Source of the DNA: Methylomicrobium agile
GTDB taxonomy: Bacteria; Pseudomonadota; Gammaproteobacteria; Methylococcales; Methylomonadaceae
Direction: 5' to 3'
Assembly: GCF_000733855.1 (NCBI RefSeq)
Contig: NZ_JPOJ01000001.1
Coordinates: 1 to 64,000 of the forward strand
Length of the DNA stretch: 64,000 bases
The position numbers were made by a program, and so were the translations under genes. Below are positions 46,648 through 50,819 of the stretch, piece after piece. The notes under the pieces are model-generated. The model was not told the DNA's origin and ran no database searches. It saw only the letters and a list, made by a program, of their open reading frames with translations. Position 1 is the stretch's first letter, and each line of letters starts with the position of its first letter.

Positions 46648-47979
46648 TCAATGCTTCATGATCGCCAAACCTTTCAATAAAGATAACGCCTCGAATATCG
46701 GATAATCGTTGATTTCCAGTGATTCTTCCGCCTTCGCCTTCTCATCCGGTGTTTTAGGCGTTTCGGTTTTTTCCCCTTTTTTCTTGCCGTTTTCCAGATG
46801 GTGCGACAAATCGGCTTCCTTGACCGGCACAAACTCCGGCTTTTCGAGCGACGCCAGCTTGACCGAAGCGAGCGCAATATCAGGTTCGATGCCTTCCGCC
46901 TGGATCGATCTGCCCGAAGGGGTATAGTAACGCGCCGTCGTCAATTTGACCGCCGCGCCGCTGCTGGTCGGCAAAATCGTCTGCACGGAACCTTTGCCGA
47001 ACGATTTTTCGCCCATGATTATCGCGCGCTTCTGATCCTGCAGGGCTCCGGCAACAATTTCGGAAGCCGATGCGGAGCCGGCATTGATCAACACCACCAT
47101 CGGCGCACCGTTCAATAAATCGTCTCCCGCCGCGGTAAAACGCATTTCCGAATTTTCGATCCGGCCTTTCGTGTAAACAATCAAACCGCTTTTCAAAAAT
47201 GCATCGCTGACTTCGACCGCGGCATTCAGTACGCCGCCGGGATTGTTCCGAAGATCGAGCACCAGGCCCTTCATCGCCCCCGCATTTTCTTTTTTCAACT
47301 GCGCCAGGCTTTCCAGCAGGCTTTCGCCGGTGCCGGATTGAAAGCTGCTGATCCGCACATAGCCGTAACCCTTCTCGAGCAATTTGCTCTTCACGCTTTT
47401 GACTTTGATCACGTCGCGGGTCAAGGTGAACTTCAGGGGGGCTTCTTCGCCTTCCCGAACTACCGTCAGATCGATTTTGCTGCCCGGTTCGCCGCGCATC
47501 GTCTTGACGGCCTCGACCAGGCTCATCCCCTTGACCGGCTTGTCGTCCAGCCGGATGATCAGATCCCCGGTTTTCAGACCGGCCCGTTGCGCCGGCGTAT
47601 CGTCGATCGGCGAAACAACCTTGATAAAACCGTTCTCCATCGTGACTTCGATGCCCAAACCGCCGAACTGGCCGGTAGTGCCTTCTTTCAACTCCTGATA
47701 TTCTTCGGGCACCAGATAGGCGGAATGCGGGTCCAGGCCGCTCAACATACCGCGCACCGCATCTTCCAGGAGCTTTTTGTCCGATACGGGCTCTACGTAA
47801 TCGCGCTTGATGCGCCCGAAAATTTCGGTGAACGTCCTGAGTTCCTCGAAGGGCAGAGCCTCCGGCTCGCTTTCCGCGGCTGGCTTGTTCAGCTCGGCAA
47901 GAACACTGCCGCCGATGCTGATGAACACGCCCAACATGACCCCCAGGGACAAAATAAAAAATGTCTTGTTTTTCTGCAT
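46648..47979 (-). CDS. ctpA: S41-family C-terminal processing peptidase
   Basis: 443 residues. A signal region (FILSLGVMLGVFISIGGSVL), PDZ domain (GLGIEVTMENGFIKVVSPID, DLIIRLDDKPVKGMSLVEAV) and the S41 protease with the catalytic Ser in INAGSASASEIVAGALQDQK and Lys in MGEKSFGKGSVQTIL. It cleaves periplasmic proteins near their C-termini. The gpmI-envC-ctpA order is conserved in gammaproteobacteria. The charged Lys-rich tail (KKKGEKTETPKTPDEK) is a common variation. Confidence 0.95.
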   Translation of the reverse strand: MQKNKTFFILSLGVMLGVFISIGGSVLAELNKPAAESEPEALPFEELRTFTEIFGRIKRDYVEPVSDKKLLEDAVRGMLSGLDPHSAYLVPEEYQELKEGTTGQFGGLGIEVTMENGFIKVVSPIDDTPAQRAGLKTGDLIIRLDDKPVKGMSLVEAVKTMRGEPGSKIDLTVVREGEEAPLKFTLTRDVIKVKSVKSKLLEKGYGYVRISSFQSGTGESLLESLAQLKKENAGAMKGLVLDLRNNPGGVLNAAVEVSDAFLKSGLIVYTKGRIENSEMRFTAAGDDLLNGAPMVVLINAGSASASEIVAGALQDQKRAIIMGEKSFGKGSVQTILPTSSGAAVKLTTARYYTPSGRSIQAEGIEPDIALASVKLASLEKPEFVPVKEADLSHHLENGKKKGEKTETPKTPDEKAKAEESLEINDYPIFEALSLLKGLAIMKH

Positions 47980-48049: not shown

Positions 48050-49246
48050 CTAACCCGGATACCATGCCAACGGATCAACCGGCTTGCCGTTCTTGCGGAT
48101 GCCAAAATACAAACCCGACTGCGAGCGCCCACCGCTTTGGCCCGCGCCGGCAATCACCTCTCCCGCCTCAACCCAGTCATCGACCCGCTTATAGAGACTC
48201 TGATTGAAACCGTAAAGCGTCATGAAGCCGTTGCCGTGATCGAGGATCATCAGCAGACCATAACCCGTCAGCCACTGCGAATAGACAACCTTGCCTCGGG
48301 TCACCGCACGAACCTCCGCCCCTTCCGTGGCAGCGATCAGGATGCCGTCCCAAAGGCTCTGCATTCCTTCGGCAACCGACTGCCCCGAAATCGGCCAAGG
48401 CAAATGCCCCTTGAGCCGCTCGAAATCGACAGGAACTCCGGCCGGCTTCCGGACTGCGCCGGACGCAGACTCGTCCGGGTTCTGCATCTGCCCATTAGCT
48501 GCCGCAGTTTGCGGCTCCTGAGCCTCCACGACCTGACTTTGCCACTTGACTTGTTCGACGATCAGCGTCTTCAATTCGTCTTCGCTTTCTTTCAACCTCG
48601 CCAGCTGTTGCTCGCCGGACAGATAATCCTGCTCGACCTCGGTGAGCAATTTGCTCCTCTCATTCCGCAACAGTTCAAGCGCGCTTTGTTCAATACGGTG
48701 TTGCTCCACATCGTGTTCCATCTGCAACGCTTCCTCCCGCTGCCGGCTTTCCAGCTCGGCAAGCCCGGAAACCGACTTTTGCACGACAGCCAGTTTCTTC
48801 AGGCGCTGCCTGCGCAAATAATCGTGATAGACCACCATTCTGCTCGCCTTCGCGAGATCCTGGTGATTCAGGATCAGCTTCAATTTCCCGGACCGCCCCA
48901 TCACAAAATCGGCGCGCAATTGCGCCGCCAGCGCTTTGTGATGCAACGCAATCTCATCTCTCTGCAGCGCAATGTCCTGATGGATCAGCTTCATCTGGCG
49001 GCGATTCTGCGCGATCTGATCCTGAAGCCTTTTCAATGCGGCCGCGCTTTCGCCATAGCGTTGCTCGATATCGGCCAGCTGATCGGTTATCGCCTCCTTC
49101 CTGAGCAGCATTTCCCGTATTTTTTTCTTGACCGACGCGATACCGGACTGGACCACGCCCAGGTCGTTCTCAAGCATGATCTCTTCGGCACCGCATTCCC
49201 GCGCCAGCAACCCCAGCACGATGCAGGTTACGATCCTTGCCCGCAT
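48050..49246 (-). CDS. envC: EnvC-type murein hydrolase activator
   Basis: 398 residues. A signal peptide (RIVTCIVLGLLARECGA), a long coiled coil (~25-250) with QLADIEQRYGESAAALKRLQ, and a C-terminal LytM/M23 domain (VRAVTRGKVVYSQWLTGYGL, LMILDHGNGFMTLYGFNQSL, SGLYFGIRKNGKPVDPLAW). The usual HxH metal ligands are replaced (YGFNQ), so it should be an inactive LytM that switches on amidases at the septum, as in E. coli EnvC. ctpA begins 70 bases downstream. Confidence 0.92.
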   Translation of the reverse strand: MRARIVTCIVLGLLARECGAEEIMLENDLGVVQSGIASVKKKIREMLLRKEAITDQLADIEQRYGESAAALKRLQDQIAQNRRQMKLIHQDIALQRDEIALHHKALAAQLRADFVMGRSGKLKLILNHQDLAKASRMVVYHDYLRRQRLKKLAVVQKSVSGLAELESRQREEALQMEHDVEQHRIEQSALELLRNERSKLLTEVEQDYLSGEQQLARLKESEDELKTLIVEQVKWQSQVVEAQEPQTAAANGQMQNPDESASGAVRKPAGVPVDFERLKGHLPWPISGQSVAEGMQSLWDGILIAATEGAEVRAVTRGKVVYSQWLTGYGLLMILDHGNGFMTLYGFNQSLYKRVDDWVEAGEVIAGAGQSGGRSQSGLYFGIRKNGKPVDPLAWYPG

Positions 49247-49253
49247 AGCTCGC

Positions 49254-49727
49254 TTAATGGGCGGCCAGCAGCGATCCGTCCGTCCTTCCGGCGAACGGCG
49301 GAATCCTTAAAACATCCGGCATGGTCAGCGCCGGGCAGGATGTGCGACCCGTCATTCGCGGTTCTTCGCCGCAAACAGGCGCCTGAGGCACCTGATTCCT
49401 CATATGGACAGCGTGGGGGCGCCCGGTTTCTTCATCATATGTCGGATGGATGTTGCCGTGATCGGCGATTAGCCGCATCTTGCCGCCGTTCAGGAAGTAA
49501 GTGACATGGGCATATTTTTCGGTCTCGCCCAGACTGGGCTGTTTCATATTGAAGTTGGACAACACTTTGCCCAATCCGTTCTCAATATGAGCCGGCAGGT
49601 ATGCAACCGAGTGCTCGAACGCTTCACGGTATTCGGTCAGCTCCACGATAGCATTGCATTCTTTCTCCGGCGCGTACCCGCCTCCATCGAGAATCAACAA
49701 AACTGAGGGCTTTGGCCGGTCCGACAT
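49254..49727 (-). pseudogene. gpmI: Shrunken remnant of 2,3-bisphosphoglycerate-independent phosphoglycerate mutase
   Basis: 157 residues, open throughout, against about 510 for GpmI. N-terminus MSDRPKPSVLLILDGGGYAP is the family start, with the metal-site Asp. The next part matches the region around residue 300-340 (ETEKYAHVTYFLNGG). Then ADHGNIHPTYDEETGRPH matches the second metal-binding block near 440, and the tail recalls the last 40 residues. The catalytic Ser loop and most of both domains are gone. All deletions keep the frame. The position between yibN and envC is the standard gpmI locus. It cannot be a working mutase; glycolysis would need another gpm. Confidence 0.8.
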
Positions 49728-49754
49728 CTTTACAATTTCTCCAGTCACAAACAC

Positions 49755-50009
49755 AAAATCAACAGCCGCGCCGCCTTCGAACCCTTACTCTTCACCCATG
49801 AATTATTGTTTCAATTCTCCTACCCCCTAGAGATAAAACTAATGTATCATAGTGCCGTTTACTAGGCTTTCGTACGTAGGTATACGCAAGACAGGGCTAC
49901 TTACTGCCCACTATATTAATACACGCGGCAATTCTTGTGTAAAAATAATTCATTGCGGCTGCTTTATTTCTAAAAACAATAACAAAAAACCGTTCTGAAG
50001 GTCGAATTT
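49755..50009. promoter_or_regulatory. Divergent intergenic region upstream of the ArsR regulator
   Basis: 255 AT-rich bases between the gpmI remnant and the ArsR-type gene. It should hold the regulator promoter and perhaps its operator. An imperfect palindrome around TTTCGTACGTAGGTATACGC (49868-49887) is a possible site. No clear -35/-10 pair can be fixed by eye. Confidence 0.3.
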
Positions 50010-50324
50010 ATGGACACCCTCAATAAACCCACGATATACGACGATAACGACATCAACCGGGCCGCGCGGTGTATCAAGGCGATGTCGCATCCTTTACGGC
50101 TAAAGATATTGTGCGTTTTGGGCACCAATTCGGTCAGTGTACAGGACATCGTCGAACAGGTGGGCACCTCGCAAAGCAACATTTCCCAACATCTCGCCAT
50201 CCTCCGCGAAAAAAACATTCTGGGATCCAAAAAAGAAGCGAACCGGGTCTATTACTACATCGACGACAACCGAATGCTGCAGTTGATCAATATGATGCGC
50301 GATGTCTTTTGTTCGCGGCTTTGA
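50010..50324 (+). CDS. ArsR-family winged-helix regulator
   Basis: 104 residues: AARCIKAMSHPLRLKILCVL, SVQDIVEQVGTSQSNISQHL, AILREKNILGSKKEANRVYY and YIDDNRMLQLINMM. The winged helix-turn-helix is complete. No metal-binding CxC motif on helix 3; a lone Cys lies near the N-terminus (RCIKAMS) and another near the end (FCSRL), so a redox or sulfur signal is conceivable. It precedes the rhodanese gene by 45 bases and may control it. Confidence 0.92.
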   Translation: MDTLNKPTIYDDNDINRAARCIKAMSHPLRLKILCVLGTNSVSVQDIVEQVGTSQSNISQHLAILREKNILGSKKEANRVYYYIDDNRMLQLINMMRDVFCSRL

Positions 50325-50369
50325 TGTGATTTAATTCCTTATTCTTCATCCGTTTCAACCAACCAATCC

Positions 50370-50819
50370 ATGCAACGTCTTTTCGAATTCATTTTCAACC
50401 ACTACGTTTATTCGCTCGCGCTGGCGGTCGTCACTTATTTATTGATTCAGGAATTTTTTGATGTGGCATTCAAAAAATTCAATCACATCACGCCGATGCT
50501 CGCCGTTGCGAAGATGAACGAAGGCGGCATCGAGATCCTCGACGTGCGCGAGGCGCCCGATTTCTCGGACAGCCATATCGAAAACGCAATCAATGCGCCG
50601 CTCAGCAAGCTGGACGAGCAACTGCCCAAACTTGCCAGCGACAAAAAAGCCCCGCTGCTGGTCGTTTGCCAGAACGGCACCCGTTCCCTGACCGCCGCCA
50701 AGAAATTGGCCAAAGCCGGCTTCGAGCAGATATTCGTGATTACCGGCGGGATGGATGCCTGGACGGAAGACTACAAACTGCCGGTCGCCAGCCGCCGCAA
50801 GCAAAAAGCGAACACCTGA
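50370..50819 (+). CDS. Rhodanese-like membrane-anchored protein YibN
   Basis: 149 residues. An N-terminal membrane helix (YVYSLALAVVTYLLIQEFF) and a rhodanese domain: EGGIEILDVREAPDFSDSHI, and the active Cys in LVVCQNGTRSLTAAKKLAKA, ending GGMDAWTEDYKLP. It fits the yibN position upstream of secB-gpsA. It may transfer sulfur. The grxC gene that usually follows is missing here. Confidence 0.9.
   Translation: MQRLFEFIFNHYVYSLALAVVTYLLIQEFFDVAFKKFNHITPMLAVAKMNEGGIEILDVREAPDFSDSHIENAINAPLSKLDEQLPKLASDKKAPLLVVCQNGTRSLTAAKKLAKAGFEQIFVITGGMDAWTEDYKLPVASRRKQKANT

Follow-up and report, generated by a model that had tools for sequence, protein, structure and literature searches.

A shrunken gpmI gene, probably kept as a ribosome-delivery leader of envC, in Methylomicrobium agile and its relatives

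An in-frame remnant of gpmI, the gene for cofactor-independent phosphoglycerate mutase, lies immediately upstream of an envC-like gene in Methylomicrobium agile (contig NZ_JPOJ01000001.1; the window analysed comprises positions 1 to 64,000, 64,000 nucleotides in all). The gene has been displaced by a second GpmI encoded elsewhere, and what is left of it is probably retained as a leader ORF that would deliver ribosomes to envC, through translational coupling, protection from transcriptional polarity or both, rather than as a metal-binding protein. The locus is organised as follows.

46648-47979, minus strand: ctpA-like C-terminal processing peptidase gene, downstream (TIGR00225, 351 against a cut-off of 219)
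48050-49246, minus strand: envC-like murein hydrolase activator gene, which the leader is proposed to serve (NF008644, 195 bits, below the cut-off of 270)
49247-49253, minus strand: spacer of 7 nt from the leader stop to the envC ATG
49254-49727, minus strand: GpmI remnant and putative translated leader ORF, 157 codons plus TAA
49257-49481, minus strand: C-terminal block, codons 83-157, GpmI residues ~437-511, with ADHGN
49482-49640, minus strand: middle block, codons 30-82, GpmI residues ~294-348, with ETEKYAHVT
49641-49727, minus strand: N-terminal block, codons 1-29, GpmI residues ~1-28
49738-49742, minus strand: Shine-Dalgarno-like GGAGA before the gpmI start
49728-50009: divergent intergenic region with the presumed promoter(s), 97% identical in the sister species
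50010-50324, plus strand: divergent ArsR/SmtB family regulator, used as anchor
50370-50819, plus strand: rhodanese, yibN-like, with a membrane anchor judged from the translation

The remnant begins with an ATG at 49727 (minus strand) and ends with a TAA at 49254-49256. Its three blocks are collinear with a 514-residue GpmI and meet in frame at about 49640/49641 and 49481/49482. The alignment assigns about 357 of the 514 residues to the deletions, among them the catalytic Ser loop, GNSEVGH. The metal ligands of GpmI presumably reside in the DMVGH segment, Asp14, ADHGN and later histidines; of these the DMVGH segment is deleted and Asp14 and ADHGN are kept, which leaves the metal sites incomplete. 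Descent from GpmI (TIGR01307 / NF003897) is evident from the three alignable blocks and from matches to TIGR01307 (NCBIfam, E 3e-21) and Pfam Metalloenzyme (1e-8). With 75.3 bits against a TIGR01307 cut-off of 330.65, no Ser loop and no full pair of metal sites, the remnant lacks what a functional GpmI should have. A scan of a collection of genome contigs with the short remnant protein as query found no relative. The sister species (G001), the only other species of the genus in our sample, carries a similar remnant at the same locus (158 aa, 80% identical), and because this form also stands there we regard the remnant as more than a product of chance.

These results agree with the initial annotation, which had described an in-frame shrunken gpmI with 157 open codons and without the Ser loop, had suggested looking for the short form in relatives, and had named envC, ctpA, yibN and secB as neighbours. 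Profile scores support the neighbours too, the envC-like match being below its cut-off, yibN being the rhodanese gene and secB lying beyond it (229 bits against a cut-off of 180); the ArsR/SmtB regulator that separates the remnant from the rhodanese gene was absent from that list. Many Methylococcales loci, and other gammaproteobacterial ones, have this gene order with gpmI at full length, and the gap between ArsR and envC can therefore be taken as the ancestral place of gpmI.

The family survey was anchored on the ArsR gene, which was found in 134 of the 201 family genomes searched. Three genomes with a full gpmI (G017, G021, G023) were left out and G019 was added, giving 132 loci, from which 12 without envC in reach and one without ArsR were subtracted to leave the 119 counted here. 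A gap of at least 1300 bp was scored as a full gpmI (71 loci, 65 of them on the strength of an ORF of 480 aa or more and six, G106, G197, G143, G179, G020 and G007, on that of open frames of 517-589 aa) and a gap under 1300 bp as a loss (48 loci). A gpmI start was recognised at a score of 5.55, above 99% of shuffled gaps, and a frame was called coupled when its stop fell between -12 and +6 nt from the envC ATG; both of these settings and the 1300 bp cut were chosen after the data had been seen. The EnvC tree covers the 106 of 119 loci with an EnvC piece of at least 200 aa, and was made by a quick method that leaves some long branches.

A second, long GpmI displaced the old gpmI of the ArsR-envC locus and made it redundant. 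The genome of the window, in four contigs, encodes an intact GpmI of 547 aa (G000 C1:361787-363430; L002 3788-5431), its one GpmI with an N-terminal domain, which exceeds the TIGR01307 cut-off (431 versus 331 bits) and answers the initial annotation's call to search for another gpmI; since a full GpmI is encoded elsewhere, the old gene is redundant. We also considered gpmA as the replacement and rejected it: the best of three PF00300 matches is alpha-ribazole phosphatase, not a mutase, and the second is closest to SixA and below cut-off. Searching the 201 family genomes with the 547-aa protein (>440 bits) identified the long type in 50, counting G175, where it is in two pieces. Of the 48 genomes that lack a full gpmI at the locus, 46 carry the long type, compared with none of the 71 that have one there; the two exceptions, G005 and G221, are genomes that are 77% and 76% complete. 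The long proteins fall into two groups, with about 85-100% and 54-56% identity to the window genome's own, which suggests two sources of displacement. On the EnvC tree, the full or lost state needs 17 changes, at least 12 of them forced by well-supported branches.

A full gpmI is missing at 48 of 119 loci, and 28 of the 48 keep a recognisable gpmI start. From this start the frame stays open to a stop within the -12 to +6 nt interval at 23 of 28 loci, whereas each of the other two reading frames reaches that interval at 0 of 28. Shuffled interiors predict 4.3 coupled loci in 28; with one third in frame by chance, the binomial P is 1.5e-7, and it is 5e-6 after four near-identical pairs are merged by eye (19 of 24 coupled). 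The leader stop and the envC ATG are 7 nt apart in 13 of the 23 coupled leaders, as in 25 of 54 full-length loci; this is the commonest gpmI-envC spacing among full-length relatives and also the one in the window. The coupled leaders have the following lengths.

18 aa, G094; 23 aa, G062, G140 and G199; 35 aa, G188; 37 aa, G066
38 aa, G218; 39 aa, G138; 40 aa, G206; 43 aa, G133 (4-nt overlap with envC); 47 aa, G149; 48 aa, G158
62 aa, G211; 68 aa, G221; 69 aa, G025; 70 aa, G074; 81 aa, G084; 82 aa, G002
100 aa, G205; 110 aa, G028; 157 aa, G000; 158 aa, G001; 195 aa, G088

Named genomes are G025 (Methylovulum miyakonense HT12), G066 (Methylobacter tundripaludum OWC-G53F), G101 (Methylomicrobium sp. 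wino1) and G012 (Methylomonas koyamae SM2). The retained parts of gpmI vary among the coupled leaders, and so do the deletions. On the EnvC tree, 12 changes are required to explain the coupled state, at least nine of them forced by starred branches, and the coupled remnants of G066, G088 and G133 sit among full-length genomes of one genus code. In four further genomes that form one clade (G012, G102, G170, G176), the gpmI ribosome site and ATG lead in frame into envC itself, a fusion that may be read as the end stage of reduction. Coupled and fused loci together make up 27 of 48, or 27 of 52 when four extra genomes are included.

These four (G090, G165, G182, G207) carry the long GpmI, stand outside the counts, and had their strand set by envC when read; by eye, a gpmI start could be recognised in none of them, and G207 retains the C-terminal tail of gpmI. 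Within the counts, five of the 28 loci with a gpmI start are uncoupled, through an early stop and a frame change (G073), one stop (G187), reduction to 8 codons (G004), a frameshift (G117), or a frame of 30 codons that ends 71 nt short of envC (G194). Another 16 of the 48 lack both a recognisable start and a fusion, namely G222, where the start score is under threshold and the frame stops 30 nt before envC, and 15 others. At least four of the six g11 genomes have a C-terminal tail at unchanged distance from envC and no gpmI start in frame. An ArsR-alignment search supplied 80 named loci, of which the 21 without a full gpmI were read by frame, several Methylococcales loci among them being repeats of genomes already counted. 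In L208 (Methylomonas sp. WSC-6), also among the 21, a start piece of 18 codons is uncoupled and ends about 87 nt before envC, and a gpmI-start leader was absent by eye from those of the 21 that lie outside Methylococcales. Because of such uncoupled, startless and leaderless loci, the leader must be called dispensable in some lineages.

The ribosome sites of the two genes are predicted to be unequal. Across the 28 remnants the median Shine-Dalgarno energy is -6.4 kcal for gpmI and -2.3 for envC (P 1e-7), and at 54 full loci the values are -6.6 and -0.2 kcal (P 7e-17). Opening the envC start is predicted to cost 9.0 kcal, against 6.2 for the gpmI start, at the 23 coupled loci, and 8.2 against 4.9 kcal at 40 full loci. 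A weak, folded envC start is the pattern expected of a gene that receives its ribosomes from the one upstream. The remnants combine three traits of a ribosome-delivery leader ORF: a strong ribosome site of their own, a stop near the next start (in 23 of 28), and a following start that is predicted to be weak or masked.

According to a review, coupling works best at short spacing, untranslated RNA is subject to polarity caused by Rho, and a short upstream ORF has been proposed whose sole role is to drive the next gene with ribosomes (PMC12548453). In one study, a spacing of about 20 nt almost abolishes coupling and short overlaps are the rule (PMC10666635), which may tell against coupling across the 7 nt seen here. 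The redundant ancestral gpmI has lost most of its length by deletions, and we propose that selection would have retained those deletions that keep translation running from the strong gpmI site to a stop near the envC start. Leader and envC would be co-transcribed, and ribosomes ending at the leader stop would reinitiate on envC, which would depend on them since its own site is weak and folded. Ribosome cover may in addition protect the mRNA from Rho, and ctpA would perhaps be served along with envC. Reinitiation and anti-polarity both fit the data, and either could be what is selected. A terminator scan gave 6 matches versus 2.5 expected (consensus matches only), one of them inside the leader, where a terminator-like hairpin with a T-rich tail lies in the last third (49334-49316, minus strand); if real and active, it would complicate the ribosome-delivery reading.

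With termination-reinitiation as known from these papers (PMC12548453, PMC10666635), these leaders share a short ORF with a strong site that ends near or overlaps a gene with a weak start. They differ from known delivery ORFs in being a shrunken enzyme gene, converted repeatedly in one family, and in that coupling is here inferred from sequence. They have redundancy, large deletions and a relaxed last third in common with an ordinary operon pseudogene, but 23 of the 28 that have a recognisable start retain it together with the frame and the stop-start spacing. Delivery ORFs and translational coupling are already known; for an enzyme gene that, once displaced, shrinks repeatedly to such a leader with its frame kept, word searches of the titles and abstract openings of open-licence literature turned up no description.

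An account that overlaps with ours is that the frame is kept only against Rho-dependent polarity on envC-ctpA, with no reinitiation involved. All the frame data fit it, and Rho polarity on untranslated RNA is established (PMC12548453). We nevertheless hold it to be unlikely on its own: leaders of 18-48 codons would offer Rho little naked RNA, yet they still stop within -10 to +4 nt of the envC start, and the envC ribosome sites are predicted to be weak and folded.

A second alternative is that in this genus the remnant encodes a small functional protein, whether metal-binding or not, and has been kept for its sequence. Over the whole ORF, the two species differ by 31 amino-acid changes versus 37.0 expected under neutrality (P 0.045). 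The first two thirds appear to be under mild sequence constraint in the genus: codons 1-104, a boundary chosen after the data had been seen and applied to two species only, have 11 changes versus 18.7 expected (P 0.0012) and an NG86 dN/dS of 0.17; ten neighbouring genes range over 0.05-0.25, and the full GpmI has 0.06. A pure leader could do without any such constraint, which would count against one. Codons 105-157 are unconstrained, with 20 changes versus 17.9 expected, dN 0.21, dS 0.20 and dN/dS 1.0, so the dN/dS check that the initial annotation had proposed points to constraint in one part and to none in the other. The changes include P5L, Y18H, L30Q, Y77C, G81D, H105P and H108P, the last two turning both C-terminal histidines into proline in the sister species. 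The predicted structure of the remnant is poor (mean pLDDT 50, pTM 0.34, from a 21-row alignment), and other lineages retain other parts, down to 18-23 aa. We thus judge a sequence-selected protein improbable. Its metal-binding version, which the initial annotation had given as one of two outcomes, is unsupported in view of the same changes and model and of the incomplete site; in addition, ADHGN is absent from 21 of the 23 coupled leaders. As for the enzyme itself, none of the 23 has the NSEVGH of its Ser loop.

Plain neutral decay, with the frame open by happenstance, is about as improbable: the gene is redundant, its last 53 codons evolve as if unconstrained, the open frame of two sister species is weak evidence by itself (34% of neutral simulations keep it open between them), and no start or fusion can be recognised any longer at 16 or more of the 48 loci, but 23 of 28 frames run to envC with the spacing kept against 0 of 28 in the other frames, and the coupled state has several independent origins. 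Decay by in-frame deletions had been the annotation's other outcome, and plain decay was to follow if relatives had a full gpmI here and the short form were unique and unexpressed. In-frame deletion, redundancy and the full gene in relatives stand; uniqueness does not, as the sister species shares the form, and plain decay leaves unexplained why many relatives, each shrunken in its own way, still have the start, the frame and the stop.

If the remnants are ribosome-delivery leaders, the conversion of a gene into a leader might, as a tentative generalisation that we put at somewhat less than even, be repeatable. The redundant first gene of a coupled operon would be hollowed out in frame, stepwise, to an ever shorter ribosome-delivery ORF, and the process could end when the next gene captures its ribosome site and ATG in frame, of which the Methylomonas koyamae group would be an example. 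This family of methane-eating bacteria offers a natural series of about 514, 195, 157, 110, 100, 82, 70, 48, 37, 23 and 18 aa, followed by fusion, which shows what selection retains when an operon gene is no longer needed for its protein. It points to a possible origin for upstream ORFs, and warns that a conserved open frame need not imply protein function. The question of coupling versus polarity is directly testable at envC, a cell-division gene.

The intergenic region at 49728-50009 shows 7 substitutions and 2 gap columns in 282 between the two species, and has diverged less than the synonymous sites of the neighbours (dS 0.11-0.25). A TACACAA...GTGTATTAATAT block is seen by eye in the ArsR-gpmI intergenic region of many relatives, and this region perhaps holds an ArsR operator and both promoters. 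A sigma-70 promoter scan stayed at chance (2 matches versus 1.9 expected, consensus matches only), and none of the known RNA elements came near its gathering score in 48900-50400. The ArsR/SmtB regulator is BigR-like (67 bits, below the model cut-off of 155) and adjoins the rhodanese gene; it may sense sulfur species. At many loci of Methylococcales and Chromatiales, ArsR is a neighbour of envC.

Other fates of gpmI were seen in passing. At seven Chromatiaceae-type loci (L222, L233, L235, L239, L248, L249, L259) gpmI is gone, the ArsR-envC gap is about 215-281 bp, and no gpmI-like leader was found by eye. G084 also has, at a distance from its envC locus, a second broken gpmI in two pieces (C1:2850498-2850960). 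In Candidatus Marithrix, a 247-codon ORF between ArsR and envC (L218:3047-3787, minus strand) looks by eye like gpmA, a cofactor-dependent mutase, and would take the place of gpmI.
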